DNA from: a virus
IMG/VR virus record: IMGVR_UViG_3300022745_000067
Location: 1 to 42,010 of that record
Strand: one strand, 5' to 3'
DNA length: 42,010 nt
Under the pieces are notes generated by a model, which searched no databases, had not been told where the DNA came from, and saw only the letters and a list, made by a program, of their open reading frames with translations. The translations under genes were made by a program, and so were the position numbers. Numbering within the stretch: position 1 is the stretch's first letter; the number at the start of each line of letters is the position of its first letter. Shown one piece after another: positions 8,852 to 41,080 of the stretch.

Positions 8852-9102
8852 GGCTCATCTCCATTCGATTGGCGATGTGGGCATTTCTCTTCGCAAACCT
8901 CGCAGCACTCGTCGAGTGTTTCGCGCAACTCGTCCCGCTTTTGCTCAGCCTTCTCGGCTCGCCCAAGCGCCTCGCGAAGCCCGGCCTCGAGTTCGGCAAT
9001 GCGTTCGGCCTGATCAAGAATCGTTGCGGCGTTGACCATGATTCCCTCCAACTTGGCGTCGTTAGCAATTTGGGTCTCAGTCTTGACGCGGCGCCTAGTC
9101 AT
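8848..9102 (-). CDS. Coiled-coil hypothetical protein with cysteine tail
   Basis: An 84-residue protein. The start at 9102 is favoured by the ribosome site GAGGAGGGG just upstream; a GTG at 9120 is the alternative. Residues about 25-65 form an obvious coiled coil (AERIAELEAGLREALGRAEK). The tail holds CCEVCEEKCPH, a cluster of four cysteines and a histidine that may bind metal. Unknown function; likely an oligomeric adaptor. Part of the accessory block. Confidence 0.55.
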   Translation of the reverse strand: MTRRRVKTETQIANDAKLEGIMVNAATILDQAERIAELEAGLREALGRAEKAEQKRDELRETLDECCEVCEEKCPHRQSNGDEP

Positions 9103-9361
9103 GGCTCCCCTCCTCGACACGTTGCGCGGCCTCTAGCAGCAACCACATGCGATCGTTCGACCAATAGTCAGGGTCGATGTACCCGTTAGTGGCGTGTTCA
9201 GCGTCGGCGGCCAAGTTGCCGATTTTCCACTCAGCGAATGAGTCGTATAGGTTCATCTCCGCGTCGCTAAGCGCGCGGAACGACTGACTTGCCCCCGAGC
9301 AAATCAGATCCGCCGCACATCGCAGAAGCTCGACCACCTGCTCTCGGTCATCATCAGTCAT
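9095..9361 (-). CDS. Hypothetical acidic protein
   Basis: An 88-residue acidic protein, MTDDDREQVVELLRCAADLI at the start, ending RVEEGSHD. Two adjacent ATGs exist; the second (9361) has the better distance to AGGAG. The chain is helical with aromatic residues (DPDYWSNDRMWLLLEAAQRVEE), a pattern common to small phage proteins of unknown role. Its start lies within the last codons of the small membrane peptide gene upstream, so translation is probably coupled. Confidence 0.5.
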   Translation of the reverse strand: MTDDDREQVVELLRCAADLICSGASQSFRALSDAEMNLYDSFAEWKIGNLAADAEHATNGYIDPDYWSNDRMWLLLEAAQRVEEGSHD

Positions 9362-9467
9362 CATGGCTCCTAAATCCCTGGAAAAGGCCAACTATCAAGG
9401 ACACCACCACAAACACGCACCCACCGGCTAGCCCGAACTTGGCCAACGCTGTGGCTAGTTCGCCCAT
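9354..9467 (-). CDS. Single-helix membrane peptide (37 aa)
   Basis: A 37-residue peptide, MGELATALAKFGLAGGCVFV at the start, then VVSLIVGLFQGFRSHDD. Residues about 12-30 form a hydrophobic helix long enough to cross a membrane, with a short polar tail. Its ATG overlaps the lipoprotein stop as TGATG, and its stop lies inside the start of the next gene. The exact junctions on both sides support a real gene. A partner of the neighbouring lipoprotein is plausible; this is inference. Confidence 0.5.
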   Translation of the reverse strand: MGELATALAKFGLAGGCVFVVVSLIVGLFQGFRSHDD

Positions 9468-9766
9468 CACAGGGTCCCCAATGGTGTACAGGTGGTGGCC
9501 TCATACTGGTAACCACTATCGTGGTCATAGCAAGCCCACGTCAAACACTCGCCCGCCCGCGGTGTGCACTCCGGCCGCGACATGTCGGCGTCACATGCCA
9601 GATTGCAGCAAGGGCTCTCGCCCGGGTCCATGGGCACGCCACAATGGTCCGGAGCAATGCATGCCGCATGGGGTGTTTGTGATGTGCAAACGGGTACGCA
9701 GGTAGGCGGGGACGGAGGGGGCTCCACACATCCAATAAGTAGGGCAAGTGATATATATTTCAGCAT
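9467..9766 (-). CDS. Cysteine-rich lipoprotein
   Basis: A 99-residue protein with a type II signal peptide: MLK, a short hydrophobic core, and the lipobox LIGC with lipid-accepting C13. Residue +2 is valine, so outer-membrane sorting is expected in a diderm. The mature part begins with a proline-rich segment (VEPPPSPP) and has eleven further cysteines (23, 27, 36, 42, 53, 54, 58, 67, 74, 79, 93), suggesting a disulfide-knotted extracytoplasmic domain. The start at 9766 overlaps the stop of the small membrane peptide upstream (ATGCTGA). It is not an Rz1 by position or size; the spanins are at 40594-41080. Surface exclusion of other phages is one possibility, not shown. Confidence 0.6.
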   Translation of the reverse strand: MLKYISLALLIGCVEPPPSPPTCVPVCTSQTPHAACIAPDHCGVPMDPGESPCCNLACDADMSRPECTPRAGECLTWACYDHDSGYQYEATTCTPLGTL

Positions 9767-9876
9767 GACAGGTGGTTGGTTTGTGTTAGACAGTAGGCCA
9801 GCAGGGCAACCCCGGCGATGCGGACGAGGATCATGAGGGTGCGGAGTTGCCAGGGGGTGGGGGTGGGGTTCTGCAT
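9760..9876 (-). CDS. Single-helix membrane peptide (38 aa)
   Basis: A 38-residue peptide, MQNPTPTPWQLRTLMILVRI then AGVALLAYCL and a polar end. Residues about 12-30 are hydrophobic with an arginine at each side, typical of a small inner-membrane helix. GGAG lies five bases before the ATG. The stop overlaps the lipoprotein start, so the two should be co-translated. No known family. Confidence 0.5.
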   Translation of the reverse strand: MQNPTPTPWQLRTLMILVRIAGVALLAYCLTQTNHLSC

Positions 9877-9966
9877 AGTTGCTCCGTTCAAGTTGATTTG
9901 TGTCCTTTGAGGGGCGTGTGCCCCGGAAGCTGGTGAGAAGTAGGTGCCCTATTGGGCTCCGGGACG

Positions 9967-10113
9967 TCATTCGTAGATACTGGGGCAACCACGCCGCGCA
10001 GCCCTAATCAGAGCCCACGCCAGCCATTGGTGCCATTTGTTGGCCCACGGCCTGCTATAGCACTCCAGAAACGCGGTTGCAATCTTGAACTTTACTGGGT
10101 CGGGACGGCTCAT
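9967..10113 (-). CDS. Small tryptophan-rich basic protein (48 aa)
   Basis: A 48-residue protein, MSRPDPVKFKIATAFLECYS at the start, then a W-rich helix (WANKWHQWLAWALIRAARRG). It is amphipathic and basic and may sit on a membrane or on nucleic acid. AGGA lies at the right distance, and the ATG overlaps (ATGA) the stop at 10110-10112 of the reading frame that encodes a CRFCGG zinc knuckle, which supports that frame being translated. About 90 bases without a gene follow (9877-9966); they hold only a short GGGGC/GCCCC hairpin at 9911-9924. Confidence 0.5.
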   Translation of the reverse strand: MSRPDPVKFKIATAFLECYSRPWANKWHQWLAWALIRAARRGCPSIYE

Positions 10114-10575
10114 GATGTCCTGTGGGTGGTAAGGGCACCAGCGCATTCGGCCTGGCAGTAGATGGGGCTAGATGGCACGATGCCCATGTATGCAGGCCCA
10201 CCACAAAAGCGACAAGTGTGGGGGGTATTCGGAGGGGGCCCCCTTGTCGGGGGCGGGAGGGGTGCTAACGGGCTTATACCAATAGATGCATGTCGTGAGC
10301 CCCCATACACTAACCTCCATAACTCCAATTGGTACACTGGTTGTACAGAAAACAACGGCCTCCATGCGTGATAGGAGGGGGTGTTGTGGGTCAGGTATTG
10401 AGACAATGGTGCGAGCCGTTGGGTCGAGCCCCATCGAAAAGAAGTCGCCATCGTTTACGCTGACATATAGGCCCCCAATAAGTTTTGATGGGGTAAATAT
10501 ACGCTGAGTAAACAGTTTATGCACTACTAAGGCCAATTCAGCTCTGAACTCAAGCAAGTTGGGAAAGTTCAGCAT
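10110..10575 (-). CDS. Zinc-finger protein, apparent +1 frameshift near the 3' end
   Basis: The main frame (10575 to 10168) encodes MLNFPNLLEFRAELALVVHK and a 135-residue product that ends unremarkably. A second frame, +1 relative to it, ends at 10110 and carries CRFCGGPAYMG ... YCQAECA, a convincing zinc knuckle, but has no start codon of its own. A run of six G on the plus strand (10220-10225; CCCCCC in the message) lies where the frames would join: reading TAC CCC, skipping one C, then CAC ACT TGT gives a continuous protein. The second frame also makes the ATGA junction with the next gene. Upstream, in the main frame but with no start codon, lies CNDRNPTCKCGKKF. Programmed slippage, gene decay or a base-calling error are all possible. 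Confidence 0.45.
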
Positions 10576-10701
10576 AGGGTCATTGAGTGTGAATTTTTTG
10601 CCACACTTGCATGTAGGATTTCTGTCGTTACATTGGGAGAGGGTGCCCCTGGGACCTAAGGGAGAGCGTAGGTGGTAGGGGGCCTAGGGTGGGTTAGGTG
10701 G

Positions 10702-10878
10702 CTAGATAGGAGGTGCCGGTACACAGCTGTGCCACAGCCATACCACGTAGGCTGCTAACTCAGCGGCCAGCACCGCACGATCGCGCTCGTCATCTAGGGC
10801 CAAGCTCTCGTGCTGGGAAAGGAAGGCCCTAAGCAGCCGTTCCAGGTCTTGCAGGGCGGGTTGATGCCTCTTAGCCAC
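10702..10878 (-). CDS. Small helical hypothetical protein (58 aa)
   Basis: A 58-residue protein starting with GTG: MAKRHQPALQDLERLLRAFL, then SLALDDERDRAVLAAELAAY and a W-rich end. It is largely amphipathic helix. The GTG lies eight bases inside the preceding gene's stop region (GTGGCTAA), and GGAG is placed upstream. No family recognised. Between it and the next gene (10576-10701) the message strand is C-rich with no clear gene. Confidence 0.5.
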   Translation of the reverse strand: MAKRHQPALQDLERLLRAFLSQHESLALDDERDRAVLAAELAAYVVWLWHSCVPAPPI

Positions 10879-10963
10879 GGGGGCGCTCCGTCACGCAATG
10901 GACGATGTAGGCCACGGTTGCGAATAGTAACGCAGCAAGGATGGGGTGGATGTCTACAGTCAT
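10871..10963 (-). CDS. Single-helix membrane peptide (30 aa)
   Basis: A 30-residue peptide, MTVDIHPILAALLFATVAYI then VHCVTERPRG. Residues 7-23 form one hydrophobic helix with a basic C-terminus. Its ATG follows the stop of the DUF932-like gene with no spacer (TAGATG), and its own stop overlaps the next start, so coupling is likely. Third single-helix peptide in this cluster. Confidence 0.45.
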   Translation of the reverse strand: MTVDIHPILAALLFATVAYIVHCVTERPRG

Positions 10964-14546: not shown

Positions 14547-14590
14547 TTGGTATCCTTCTTGCTTGCAATGGGTTGACGATTCCGAGAGCA

Positions 14591-14608
14591 CCTATAGGTA
14601 TCTATAGG
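14591..14608. promoter_or_regulatory. Perfect operator-like dyad over a -10 region
   Basis: On the message strand, CCTATAGATACCTATAGG: 7-bp arms CCTATAG/CTATAGG around a 4-base spacer. It lies 45 bases before the first gene of the leftward operon and covers the -10 of the promoter at 14599-14626. Its sequence is different from the TTATCG dyads at 12271, so a different regulator is likely. Confidence 0.6.
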
Positions 14609-14626
14609 GGCTGTCGCAAGTGTCAA
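14599..14626 (-). promoter_or_regulatory. Leftward early promoter
   Basis: A consensus -35 TTGACA (14626-14621) and a -10 of TAGATA (14604-14599) at 16 bp, or AGATAC at 17. It points toward the early operon. The dyad covers the -10, so a bound protein would block RNA polymerase. The -35 is a perfect sigma70 match. Confidence 0.6.
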
Positions 14627-15526: not shown

Positions 15527-15630
15527 GACCCAGCACGCAAGTAGGGCCCAATTGACGGGATATGCAGGTCAGTTGTCCCGGAGCCCACTAGGGCGACCTT
15601 GTTTATAAAGCTTCCGGGGCACAAACCCCT

Positions 15631-15726: not shown

Positions 15727-15795
15727 GACCTGGCAGTATAAATATCAGCTCTCGATACGCGGCGCGCCCAATCCAAACGGGCCGACCTGGCAGTA
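15727..15795. repeat. Duplicated 12-mer GACCTGGCAGTA
   Basis: Identical copies at 15727-15738 and 15784-15795 in the same orientation. The first is followed by TAAATAT, so it ends in a -10-like TATAAA; the second is followed by GAGGGGG. It may mark a late-promoter or processing element just upstream of the tRNA-like sequence. Confidence 0.35.
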
Positions 15796-15798
15796 GAG

Positions 15799-15877
15799 GG
15801 GGCACTAAGGCTGGAGTGGGAGCAGATCGACGTTCCAACCGTTGATATGCAGGTAGGTTCGACTCCTACCCCGGCCG
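15799..15877 (+). tRNA. tRNA-like element, anticodon CCA (Trp-like), atypical acceptor/D region
   Basis: The 3' half is a convincing tRNA: anticodon arm CGACG-TTCCAAC-CGTTG (15828-15844; five pairs, U33 present, anticodon CCA), an 8-base variable loop, and T arm GTAGG-TTCGACT-CCTAC (15853-15869). Discriminator would be G15877, as in bacterial tRNA-Trp. The 5' half is odd. One fold has D-arm-like GCTG...AGTGGGAG...CAGA, giving normal length but a poor acceptor stem (from 15799). Another pairs GGCTGG (15809-15814) with CCGGCC (15871-15876), giving a good acceptor but no D arm. CCA is not encoded. It may be a degenerate phage tRNA, a tRNA mimic, or the 3' part of a host tRNA kept as an attachment sequence. 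Confidence 0.4.
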
Positions 15878-15965
15878 CTATTACCGACATTTAGACCCTG
15901 CATCGCAACTCCGCTTGTCAATCATGGCGCGGATGGTGGGGTCGCCCAGTCGGGCTAGAGGTTCA

Positions 15966-16424
15966 ATGCTTGCATGCCGCACCTGTCGAGTCGCCCTATC
16001 CGCCGCCCACGGGTGTGTGGTGTGTGACTCCATGCGCAAGCAGCTGGTAGCCGTTGGTGACACCGACGAGGAGCGCCCTAGCTTGGCCCAGGTGAGCGCC
16101 GAGGTTATCGCCGGCATCCGCTCCCAGGTACGCCATTACCGTGCGCTCCTAGACGCCGACAAGACTGATAGCACGTCGCTCAACCGCCTGCTCGCCCTGT
16201 CCAACTCGGCAGCCAAGGTGCTAGAGGCCGCCCGCAAGCTGCAGGCTGATGGTAAGGACGCCGTCGACTCCATGTCGTTTGCCGAGCGCGCCACCCTGTT
16301 TATCGAGTGGTACATGGACCTACCCCCGCCCTACCGCGTCAAGCTACGGGCGCAAATGGACGAGCACGAGACCGCGTTGATGGCCCCTGTGGCCGTACCT
16401 GCCCTGCCGAGGCCCAATGAGTGA
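15966..16424 (+). CDS. Zinc-ribbon protein, possible terminase small subunit
   Basis: A 152-residue protein, first of the rightward genes. The start at 15966 is favoured by GAGG just upstream and gives a chain beginning MLACRTCRVALSAAHGCVVC, a two-knuckle zinc ribbon; an ATG at 15924 is an alternative without a ribosome site. The rest is helical (AEVIAGIRSQVRHYRALLDA; LSNSAAKVLEAARKLQADG), as in DNA-binding small terminase subunits. Two genes separate it from the large terminase. The small-terminase call rests on position and size; no sequence signature proves it. Confidence 0.5.
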   Translation: MLACRTCRVALSAAHGCVVCDSMRKQLVAVGDTDEERPSLAQVSAEVIAGIRSQVRHYRALLDADKTDSTSLNRLLALSNSAAKVLEAARKLQADGKDAVDSMSFAERATLFIEWYMDLPPPYRVKLRAQMDEHETALMAPVAVPALPRPNE

Positions 16425-29050: not shown

Positions 29051-31629
29051 TGCCAGGCCCGCTCGACACCGGCATGGGCCCCCTTGACCCACAAGCACCG
29101 CCCGTCGCCCCCGACGACACCAAGCAGCAAGCCCTAGCCGCGCTGGCGGCGCTTAGTGGCCACATCCCGCTGTTTAACCCTGCAGGCGAGCCCGATCCTG
29201 GCACAGGGTCCGACCCTGGCCTGGCACCCGTCGTGCCTGGCCCCAGTGGGTTCTACAGCGACAGCACCGGGCAGCTCTATGACCCAATGGGCGGATGGGG
29301 CAACTTCAATCCAGCCACGGGGGGCGCGTCCACGGGCATTGTTGACGGCCACTTCGGGCCACCCCCTGGGAGGGGGCTCGCGGAACCCGGAGCGCAAGGG
29401 GCGCCCACTTCTCAACAAGCTTCCGGGTCTCTTCCTCCTCCCTCTGCATCCCCCGCACCACCTGCTCCCCCTCCAGGTGCCGCGCCTGTTGCCCCCGCTG
29501 CGCCTACACCTCCAATGGGCAAGGACGGGTTCCCCGACCGCACGCCAGTTTTACTCCCTGAGCTGTCGCTGGCCGACCTGCCTATCCCTAAGACTGAGGA
29601 AGAGGCCAAGCACAATCAAGACCTGATTGCGGCTAGCGCTGAGAACGCCAAGGAGAACGCCCGTCGGTTAGCAGAGGCCGCAGCCCTGTCCAAGAACGAC
29701 AGGGAGATGGCGGCGATGCAGGCGGATGTAGAGGAGCGCGCGAAGATCGACGCCGAGCACGAGAAAGCTGTAATTGTCGCACACACGTTGGCACAGCAAA
29801 AGACGGCCGAGCAGGTCAAGCAATACGACGCGGCCGTTGCCGCCAAGCCCGACCCAGCCCACTATTTTTCGGGCGAGGGTGGGGGGCTCCGACGCGTTAT
29901 GTGGGGCATGGCGGTTGCGCTCCAGGCAATTGGAAACATGCGGAACCCGGGTGCCACAAACCAGGCCCTGGCCATGCTAGAGCGTGAACTCAACAATGAC
30001 GTTGACCAGCAACTCAAGCAACAGTCGATCCAAATTGACCGTGCGAAGTTCGGGGTTGCCCAGCAGCGCGAGGAGAACCAGTACGAGGAGAGCAATGTAG
30101 AGGCTCGCTACCGAATGGTCCTCCAGCGCCAGCTTAGCCTTGCCGCCTATGCAAAGGCCAAGGCAGACGCACCCGGACCTTTGGATGCCAAAGCAGCGGC
30201 TGCTACGCTCCATGCGGAGTTTGCGACAAAAGCCATGGACACCGTGGCTAAGATGACAGAGGTCGCCACGGCTAAGGAGGTCAAAAAGGTCGACCAAGCC
30301 TTCGATCTCAAGAAGCAGTCGCGTGAGTTTGGCCACTCCGACGCAATGCAGCAGCGTACCTTCGAGCAAGAAGATCGGATGGCTCGGGAACGCCTCGGGC
30401 TGGGTGCCCAGGAGTACGCGGCCAAGAAGGCGATTGACGAAGTAGAGATCGACCCACAAGCCACTGGCCTCTCTATCCGCGATAGGAATGGCAACCTTCA
30501 CCCTGCAGTTGTCGCCGACAAGGAGACACGCCTAAAGATCGGGGCCGACTTAGACACCATGTCGCGGCAATCCGATGCCGCTGCTCGCATCCTTGCCCGT
30601 GTTGACAAGGTGACGAAGTGGAGTGCAGTGCTTGGTAGAGACCCAGAGCTTAGGGGCGCCATCCTCGATTACATTATGCCCCAAATCAAGGACGCGTCGG
30701 GTAAGGCATTCACCAAGGAGGAGGTCAAGAATCACCTCGCTACCATCGGCGTAGCTGGATTTGGCGGACTAGGCAGTGTGTCTGACATATTGGGAGAGCT
30801 GGGTAGGGGCAACTTTACCGCCGACCTATCCCTCCTCAAGCGGAAGATGGCGAGTCAACAGACCGACGCCGAGGCCGCGCTAAAGCAACGGTACAATCTG
30901 AAGCTAAATGGTGGGGAGCTAAATTTCCGTCCACCCCCGCGCACTGCAAAGCTGCCTGATCCGCTGGATGCTGATGGATTTGTAGGGATCCATGGTGGCG
31001 CGGTGCCAGGGGTTGACCCCCTGCCAATGAACGCAACAGATGCCCGGCGCGGCTTCAACCAGGCCGGTGAGCCGATCCGCCAGACCGCTGCCGACTCTGT
31101 CATCAATGACAAGGTGATGGGCCTCTATGGCACCACCGACATGGCCCACCCCGAGCAAGGCAAGATCCTAACGGTAAAGGGAATTGCCGCCGCGGAGCCA
31201 GGTATGCGTCGGGACGTTCTACGCGCCCTCGAGGCGGCCGGGGACTTGACCCCCGAATCCAAGACTCGGGCTATCCAGCACCTCGAGGTGGAGATCGCCA
31301 CGGCCAAACTAAAGTCGGAGGAGACCAGAGCAGACATCGTCAAATCAATCGCGGCCAAGGCCCTGCTAGACATGAAGTTGTCCCATGATGGGCCACCAAG
31401 CACGGGGGAAATCCTCGACAAGGTCCAGGGGGCGATGAACGTGCCGGCAGGTGAGCAGTCAGCCATTGTCCGCGAGGTCCGCGATGCAATCGACCGCCTG
31501 CAGGGAGCCAACGAGCCCATAACGAAGCCGAGCCAATTGCCACAAAGACCAGCAGCGCCATCTAAGCCGGTCATAGTGGATGATGGAGTGGCCACCGGGC
31601 ATCGAGCGGGATTCCAAGCAGCACCATAG
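29050..31629 (+). CDS. Internal virion protein candidate 2
   Basis: An 859-residue protein. The first 180 residues are Pro/Ala-rich and disordered (ASPAPPAPPPGAAPVAPAAP near 130-160), followed by long coiled coils (about 190-300 and 400-480: KENARRLAEAAALSKNDREM; QKTAEQVKQYDAAVAAK). The architecture matches ejection proteins that leave the capsid ahead of DNA. No lytic domain is evident. The next gene starts six bases after the stop. Confidence 0.6.
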   Translation: MPGPLDTGMGPLDPQAPPVAPDDTKQQALAALAALSGHIPLFNPAGEPDPGTGSDPGLAPVVPGPSGFYSDSTGQLYDPMGGWGNFNPATGGASTGIVDGHFGPPPGRGLAEPGAQGAPTSQQASGSLPPPSASPAPPAPPPGAAPVAPAAPTPPMGKDGFPDRTPVLLPELSLADLPIPKTEEEAKHNQDLIAASAENAKENARRLAEAAALSKNDREMAAMQADVEERAKIDAEHEKAVIVAHTLAQQKTAEQVKQYDAAVAAKPDPAHYFSGEGGGLRRVMWGMAVALQAIGNMRNPGATNQALAMLERELNNDVDQQLKQQSIQIDRAKFGVAQQREENQYEESNVEARYRMVLQRQLSLAAYAKAKADAPGPLDAKAAAATLHAEFATKAMDTVAKMTEVATAKEVKKVDQAFDLKKQSREFGHSDAMQQRTFEQEDRMARERLGLGAQEYAAKKAIDEVEIDPQATGLSIRDRNGNLHPAVVADKETRLKIGADLDTMSRQSDAAARILARVDKVTKWSAVLGRDPELRGAILDYIMPQIKDASGKAFTKEEVKNHLATIGVAGFGGLGSVSDILGELGRGNFTADLSLLKRKMASQQTDAEAALKQRYNLKLNGGELNFRPPPRTAKLPDPLDADGFVGIHGGAVPGVDPLPMNATDARRGFNQAGEPIRQTAADSVINDKVMGLYGTTDMAHPEQGKILTVKGIAAAEPGMRRDVLRALEAAGDLTPESKTRAIQHLEVEIATAKLKSEETRADIVKSIAAKALLDMKLSHDGPPSTGEILDKVQGAMNVPAGEQSAIVREVRDAIDRLQGANEPITKPSQLPQRPAAPSKPVIVDDGVATGHRAGFQAAP

Positions 31630-40375: not shown

Positions 40376-40597
40376 GTGGAAATTCCCAACCTTGACCAAT
40401 TGAATGGCCTGTCCGGCATCCTCGGGCTCGTCAACGGCCTTCTCCTGTGGCCCATTGTCCGCTCCCTCAAGGACATGGCGGCGAAGTCGGATAAACGCCA
40501 CGCGGCCACCGAACATAGGGTCCGCCTCCTAGAGGCCAAGGTCCTGCGTCCTCGTAAGGCACCCCGTAAGACCTCCCGCAAGGCACGGACCAAATGA
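40376..40597 (+). CDS. Holin candidate (single membrane segment)
   Basis: A 73-residue protein starting with GTG. Residues about 9-28 form a hydrophobic segment (LNGLSGILGLVNGLLLWPIV), followed by a charged, basic tail (AKSDKRHAATEHRVRLLEAK). Single-segment holin-like proteins with basic ends occur next to spanin genes in podovirus-like phages. It overlaps the Rz-like start by four bases (ATGA). The holin call rests mainly on position. Confidence 0.5.
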   Translation: MEIPNLDQLNGLSGILGLVNGLLLWPIVRSLKDMAAKSDKRHAATEHRVRLLEAKVLRPRKAPRKTSRKARTK

Positions 40598-40968
40598 ACT
40601 GGGCCCCGTGGCTGGCCGCCAGCGTATCTGTGCTTGTAGGCACACTAGCTGCCTTGTACTATAGATGGAGGCTAGGCGTTGTTAGTGGCCAACTGGCTGC
40701 AACCCTTGACGCCCAGACGAAATTGACGGCAGCAACGGATGCGCTGGCGCTACGGGCCACACAGGCCGAGGCTGCCCTAGCTAGGCGCCAATTGCAGGAG
40801 CGCGACAATGATGTACAAGCTACGACTGGCATTACTGGTAATGGGGCTGCTAATTTGCTTAACCAGCTGCACGGAAGTCCAGCGGGTCCCCGTAGTCCTG
40901 CCCCACCTAACGTGCCCACTGCCGCCCCTGGGGCCATTCCCCCCGCTATCGGCTTCCGGCCAAGGTGA
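40594..40968 (+). CDS. i-spanin (Rz-like)
   Basis: A 124-residue inner-membrane protein. Residues about 5-22 form an N-terminal anchor (WLAASVSVLVGTLAALYY), followed by a periplasmic coiled coil (about 30-72: SGQLAATLDAQTKLTAATDA; QAEAALARRQLQERDND) and a Pro-rich end. It is the partner of the embedded lipoprotein gene that starts at 40808 in another frame, as in lambda Rz/Rz1. Together they fuse the two membranes at lysis. Confidence 0.7.
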   Translation: MNWAPWLAASVSVLVGTLAALYYRWRLGVVSGQLAATLDAQTKLTAATDALALRATQAEAALARRQLQERDNDVQATTGITGNGAANLLNQLHGSPAGPRSPAPPNVPTAAPGAIPPAIGFRPR

Positions 40969-41080
40969 CACGGTCGTCCTCCCCGCATCCGAGGCCGCTG
41001 CCGTCTGGCTATGGGTCCGGGATGCACAGCGCTGGATGGAGATGGCCGCCACATGCATCGACTACCAGGACCAGCCGTGA
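40808..41080 (+). CDS. o-spanin lipoprotein (Rz1-like), starting inside the Rz-like gene
   Basis: A 90-residue lipoprotein: MMYKLRLALLVMGLLICLTS then lipid-accepting C21 (lipobox LTSC; +2 Thr, so outer-membrane sorting). The mature part is proline-rich (LPHLTCPLPPLGPFPPLS) like Rz1 proteins. AGGAG lies before the ATG, inside the Rz-like gene, and the frames overlap by 161 bases. An additional cysteine (C36) may form a dimer. The Rz/Rz1 arrangement supports a diderm host. Confidence 0.75.
   Translation: MMYKLRLALLVMGLLICLTSCTEVQRVPVVLPHLTCPLPPLGPFPPLSASGQGDTVVLPASEAAAVWLWVRDAQRWMEMAATCIDYQDQP

Follow-up and report, generated by a model that had tools for sequence, protein, structure and literature searches.

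The virus record IMGVR_UViG_3300022745_000067 of IMG/VR, whose 42,010 nt were analysed as a whole (hereafter the window), codes for a run of tiny membrane peptides and a cysteine-rich lipoprotein, which raises the question of whether these genes constitute one phage system and what it might do at the host envelope. The minus strand below 14.4 kb carries genes for a DnaB-like helicase, an Erf-like annealing protein, an exonuclease and part of a DNA polymerase, and the plus strand from 15.9 kb those for the terminase, a head-tail adaptor match and other late proteins. The cluster shares its strand with the replication and recombination genes, and the Rz/Rz1-like pair, at 40.6-41.1 kb, lies a long way off. 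That spanin pair (40594-40968 and 40808-41080, judged from the sequence) is on the plus strand, the side opposite the lipoprotein, and because of it (40594-41080) the host is probably Gram-negative, with an outer membrane; scans of GTDB genomes with the lipoprotein and a capsid alignment gave 0 matches to a host. A sequence-only reading had placed the cluster in the early region, far from lysis. Strand and distance bear this out, but strictly early expression of the lipoprotein half is uncertain because its leader element is common to the late operon. This element, present in three sense-strand copies and found ahead of the late operon as well as the lipoprotein sub-operon, is the strongest new fact to emerge from our analysis.

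The cluster comprises the following frames, in their order on the minus strand:

10871-10963, minus strand: 30-aa single-transmembrane (TM) peptide MTVDIHPILAALLFATVAYIVHCVTERPRG, with the Shine-Dalgarno (SD) site GGAGG
10702-10878, minus strand: 58-aa protein with a GTG start and without a family, overlapping the 30-mer by 8 nt
10168-10575, minus strand: 135-aa orphan ORF without an SD site, absent from the sequence-only reading
10110-10310, minus strand: zinc-finger-like frame with CRFC-x15-CQAEC, 66 aa from the GTG at 10310
9967-10113, minus strand: W-rich basic 48-mer MSRPDPVKFKIATAFLECYSRPWANKWHQWLAWALIRAARRGCPSIYE
9760-9876, minus strand: 38-aa single-TM peptide with the SD site GGAG, overlapping the lipoprotein gene by 7 nt
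9467-9766, minus strand: 99-aa lipoprotein with a 12-residue signal peptide, a LIGC lipobox and Val at +2
9354-9467, minus strand: 37-aa single-TM peptide MGELATALAKFGLAGGCVFVVVSLIVGLFQGFRSHDD, joined to the lipoprotein gene by a UGAUG coupling
9095-9364, minus strand: 89-aa acidic soluble protein, overlapping the 37-mer by 11 nt

The 30-, 38- and 37-aa single-helix peptides, the 48-mer, the 58-mer and the lipoprotein, with eleven cysteines beyond that of the lipobox and hence 12 in total, all read as previously described. Between 6.9 and 14.4 kb, three short ORFs of the gene-bearing strand have a strong TM stretch, as against one of the opposite strand. When codon usage was scored against wrong-frame segments, 3-4% of these scored as high as the three TM peptides and the 58-mer, which is mild (weak) support for translation, and about 8-11% as high as the 48-mer and the 135-aa ORF, where the support is weak; for the lipoprotein the figure was 36%, uninformative in a protein of unusual amino acids, and for the zinc-finger frame 55-65%, which lends it no support. 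The claim that the cluster is joined by overlaps holds for the 38TM-lipoprotein-37TM genes, for the 30-mer and 58-mer and for the zinc finger and 48-mer, but the whole is broken by two gaps, one of 126 nt (10576-10701) and the other of 90 nt (9877-9966). The best evidence for the chain of 38TM, lipoprotein and 37TM is the overlaps themselves: with the 89-aa protein these genes follow one another with overlaps of 7, 1 and 11 nt, and three further overlapping genes come after the 89-aa protein.

The upstream half is patchier than this sub-cluster. It opens with a TAGATG coupling, in which the TAG of a 428-aa gene abuts the ATG of the 30-aa TM peptide, and closes with an ATGA shared by the zinc-finger stop and the 48-mer start. 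In the stretch between, the open frame of the 135-aa ORF extends upstream of its ATG with a CKCG motif and has no start codon there, and about 140 nt of the ORF are shared with the zinc-finger frame. The zinc-finger gene had been listed as such; its frame is present and ends at 10110(-), but the start is uncertain, with GTG 10310 the best candidate. At 10110-10683(-), a +1 shift at TACCCCCCACAC would join a Pro-rich linker to the zinc finger; a programmed frameshift, a sequence error or overlapping genes are the candidate accounts of this arrangement. One might suppose that several frames are untranslated or decayed: those of the zinc finger and the 135-aa ORF would be remnants, or parts of one gene that is broken or joined by frameshifting, and the small ORFs by-products of a GC-rich sequence. 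The zinc-finger frame does score like a wrong frame, and the 135-aa ORF, with its missing SD site, its startless upstream extension and its long overlap, fits such decay. Nevertheless, we hold this to be very unlikely in view of the TAGATG, ATGA and UGAUG couplings, the 7-nt overlap, the SD sites of two TM peptides and the sensible zinc-finger motif. The upstream half (30TM, 58-mer, 135-aa ORF, zinc finger and 48-mer) is best explained as a separate run of small accessory genes.

The short proteins had been marked for database searches, and searches of Pfam, PHROGs, phage records and IMG/VR gave no convincing homologue for any cluster protein that was tested. The lipoprotein in particular gave chance matches alone (E = 8-9) in a tblastn search of 50,697 phage records, and IMG/VR scans with the 428-aa neighbour, the lipoprotein and a phrog_2554-like protein recovered 0 relatives. 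IMG/VR does hold a few relatives, with TerL at about 51-63% identity, and two were used for comparison: G003 (46.3 kb, TerL 62% identity) and G004 (26.3 kb). In both, the genes flanking the variable stretch are conserved on either side, and about 6.9-15.9 kb of the window has no credible counterpart; the 428-aa neighbour is missing, too, from the remaining relatives searched, whose records are in several cases fragments. A lack of conservation of the frames in related phages had been named as a refuting outcome, and we found no conservation, although functional look-alikes do occur in one relative and possibly in a second. G003 codes on its early strand for a UGAUG-coupled, 104-aa Cys-rich lipoprotein (MRAVLVVVLAACGSD..., L006:9898-10212(-)) that lies near an amidase-like gene and does not adjoin TM peptides; we take it to recall myxobacterial lipoproteins in style. 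The same genome has, also on the early strand, a UGAUG-coupled 40-aa single-TM peptide (L007:14010-14132(-)) that starts with MGE like a TM peptide of the window. The early region of G004 has a possible 81-aa lipoprotein (MMHILMAMLVSCISC..., L028:10540-10785(+)), picked by eye and failing a stricter lipobox filter. Homology between the Cys-rich lipoproteins of the window and G003 was considered and rejected, as 20% of shuffles score as high. Hence, judging by these sequences, the kind of gene may recur between phages while the sequences do not.

These comparisons give the main rival to a functional module, namely that unrelated small accessory genes for host takeover, anti-defence or membrane effects merely sit side by side in a fast-turnover early operon. 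We deem this nearly as likely as the envelope module proposed below: 6.9-14.4 kb lacks a credible counterpart in G003 and G004 while both flanks are conserved, gaps interrupt the cluster at 10576-10701 and 9877-9966, and the upstream half has no link to the downstream one. Conversely, the chained overlaps of the 38TM-lipoprotein-37TM-89aa genes and the recurrence of the lipoprotein and TM-peptide types in a relative are less readily accounted for by mere adjacency. The best explanation of the wider context is a podovirus-like phage in which the lipoprotein half has been inserted in a hypervariable stretch of the early operon.

Some further features of these genomes deserve mention. An apparent tyrosine integrase in the variable early region of G003 (L007:10945-12003(-), by eye) implies that phages of the group may be temperate, and a 175-nt direct repeat with 99.4% identity at its ends (L005:1-175 and L007:18150-18324) suggests that this genome is complete. 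In the window, an imperfect 54-nt palindrome (78%) at 14573-14626, in the early/late intergenic region, is a possible operator. The site at 15780-15882(+) has a good T-arm (GTAGGTTCGACTCCTAC) and matching acceptor ends (GGCCG/CGGCC); ARAGORN calls no tRNA there and the fold is no better than shuffles, and the site may represent a tRNA in decay or a tRNA end of the attP type. A small zinc-ribbon-like protein (MLACRTCRVALSAAHGCVVC...), kept in the relatives checked and lacking a PHROG match, is encoded at 15963-16424(+), where the late operon starts.

What, then, might the downstream half do? The N-terminal signal/lipobox sequence of the 99-aa protein (MLKYISLALLIGC) carries the lipobox that marks Llp/Cor-type lipoproteins. 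A lipobox scan of the window returned 3 ORFs where shuffles gave 1.1 +/- 0.8: this protein, an antisense frame and the Rz1-like spanin. No other clear lipobox protein was seen in the window besides the Rz1-like one. An AlphaFold model of the lipoprotein, made with no alignment, reached a pLDDT of 48 and was set aside as unusable evidence of fold. The expression, localisation, disulfides and function of the lipoprotein we infer as follows. It would be exported by Sec and lipidated at Cys13. The +2 residue of a lipobox governs the sorting of lipoproteins to the inner or outer membrane; here it is Val, not Asp, and together with the signal peptide and the lipobox it predicts sorting to the outer membrane. 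The high Cys content points to an oxidising compartment, and the protein would acquire disulfides as it folds, either in the periplasm or at the cell surface, with the two coupled TM peptides sitting in the inner membrane. The genes for 38TM, lipoprotein and 37TM might form an accessory envelope module that shields or alters the host envelope. Its most likely role would be superinfection exclusion or receptor/envelope modification, with a likeness to small phage lipoproteins (T5 Llp, T1 Cor) in action, not descent. We favour this reading tentatively, as the best model to hand.

Such an activity has precedent. T5 Llp binds FhuA from the periplasmic side, alters its outer loops and acts in superinfection exclusion, and its investigators suggested that many small phage proteins without a known function may serve exclusion (PMC9586334); among the mEp phages, four sequence types of Lpp are found and the two lipoproteins tested excluded phages (PMC11893012). 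With Llp and the Cor proteins of T1 and phi80 the window protein shares its small size, its presumed outer-membrane location and a gene away from those for lysis; Llp, for its part, is expressed early. The window protein differs in having 12 cysteines where Llp and Cor have one intramolecular disulphide, in being flanked by coupled TM peptides and in lacking any sequence similarity to Llp/Cor members in Pfam, PHROG, NCBIfam or the tblastn search of phage records. The Ltp-type lipoproteins of temperate Streptococcus phages (TP-J34) are likewise surface proteins deployed against incoming phages; their hosts, however, are Gram-positive, and the lipoprotein has no Pfam, PHROG or NCBIfam match to the Ltp/Sie families and no similar phage record. 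Rz1-type spanins are also short phage lipoproteins paired with a membrane protein, but the window already has its Rz/Rz1-like pair, and the present lipoprotein is Cys-rich, lies on the other strand and is not nested in an Rz frame, the 38TM and lipoprotein genes sharing only 7 nt.

The envelope module draws support from the lipobox, the short signal peptide and the tight couplings, from its location on the strand of the helicase, exonuclease, Erf-like annealing protein and DNA polymerase genes, and from G003, with its different Cys-rich lipoprotein and its UGAUG-coupled MGE peptide, along with the possible lipoprotein of G004; receptor-linked exclusion genes tend to be exchanged for non-homologous ones of equivalent function, as the Lpp types of the mEp phages illustrate. 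Against it stand the want of a homologue of known function or a match in relatives, the codon usage, which by itself does not support the lipoprotein frame, the unusable structural model, the disparity in cysteines with Llp/Cor and a timing left open by the leader common to the late operon. Moreover, the G003 look-alike neighbours an amidase-like gene and not TM peptides, and that of G004 fails the strict filter.

The leader in question had gone unmentioned in the sequence-only reading. It occurs as:

9910-9965, minus strand: copy a, 56 nt in the 90-nt gap, 5' of the lipoprotein sub-operon; core 9922-9963
15575-15630, plus strand: copy b, 56 nt in the late-operon leader; core 15577-15618
29386-29427, plus strand: copy c, the 42-nt core only, inside an 859-aa late gene

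The core is an inverted repeat, CCCGGAGC-N25-GCTTCCGGG, with identical spacing in all three copies, each of which is on the transcribed strand. Copies a and b, found by comparison of the window with itself, are equal in length and differ at 14 positions, all outside the predicted pairs; copy c was found by a covariance model and a pattern search, with a chance expectation of 0.00 from shuffles and about 4e-5 from base composition. Folding is better than in shuffles for copies a and b (z about -2) but not for copy c. Two hairpins are predicted for either of the first two, in copy a the CCCGGAGC/GCTTCCGGG repeat plus a second one, and alternative folds compete. Among the repeated inverted repeats listed for the window and its relatives, the element alone stands at two separate places with matching spacing, the G003 terminal repeat excepted; the other matches are single palindromes read on both strands, of which shuffles gave at least as many. 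No copy was seen in the relatives, nor in a pattern scan of IMG/VR, and Rfam gave only two sub-threshold matches, which we take as chance. A sigma-70 promoter was rejected, there being no consensus match just upstream of copy a or b.

The occurrence of one element ahead of both operons, with all 14 differences outside the predicted pairs, could mean that the lipoprotein sub-operon is expressed late, along with the genes for virion and lysis, and that its role is in disrupting the envelope or in release, not in exclusion. The amidase-like neighbour of the G003 lipoprotein is in keeping with this. We nonetheless regard late expression as quite unlikely, given the separate Rz/Rz1-like pair at 40.6-41.1 kb, the early-strand location and the scan that found no sigma-70-like promoter upstream of the element. 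The element itself may act as RNA, in antitermination of the put kind, or equally well as DNA, in the form of an operator with two half-sites. In HK022, two similar RNAs, putL and putR, lie downstream of opposite early promoters; each is about 70 nt long and has two stem-loops (PMC9378689). The window parallels them in having two similar 56-nt elements on oppositely directed operons, with two possible hairpins each (put being about 70 nt), and differs in its third copy inside a late gene, in the position of the early copy far inside an operon and in the lack of a demonstrated shared sequence or Rfam match; the likeness is in layout alone. An RNA of the put type is defined, beyond its layout, by binding to the beta' zinc-binding domain of RNA polymerase and by suppressing termination. 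It is conceivable, if unlikely, that the element is a cis-acting put-like RNA by which polymerase reads through terminators in the lipoprotein sub-operon and the late operon, in a phage group unrelated to lambdoids and with a new Cys-rich exclusion lipoprotein under its control.

Returning to the question raised at the outset, the cluster is real in its parts and overstated as a single system, which conservation cannot verify: it is interrupted, its downstream half has a separate leader element, shared with the late operon, and the set is kept in no related phage. Superinfection exclusion or host-envelope remodelling survives as the most natural guess for such proteins, though not for one composite system. 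Were the element an antitermination RNA, it would extend RNA-only antitermination signals beyond lambdoid phages. If the lipoprotein excludes other phages, the few phage lipoproteins proven to act in exclusion would be joined by a disulfide-rich type, and the idea of a rapid turnover of such genes between related phages would gain support.
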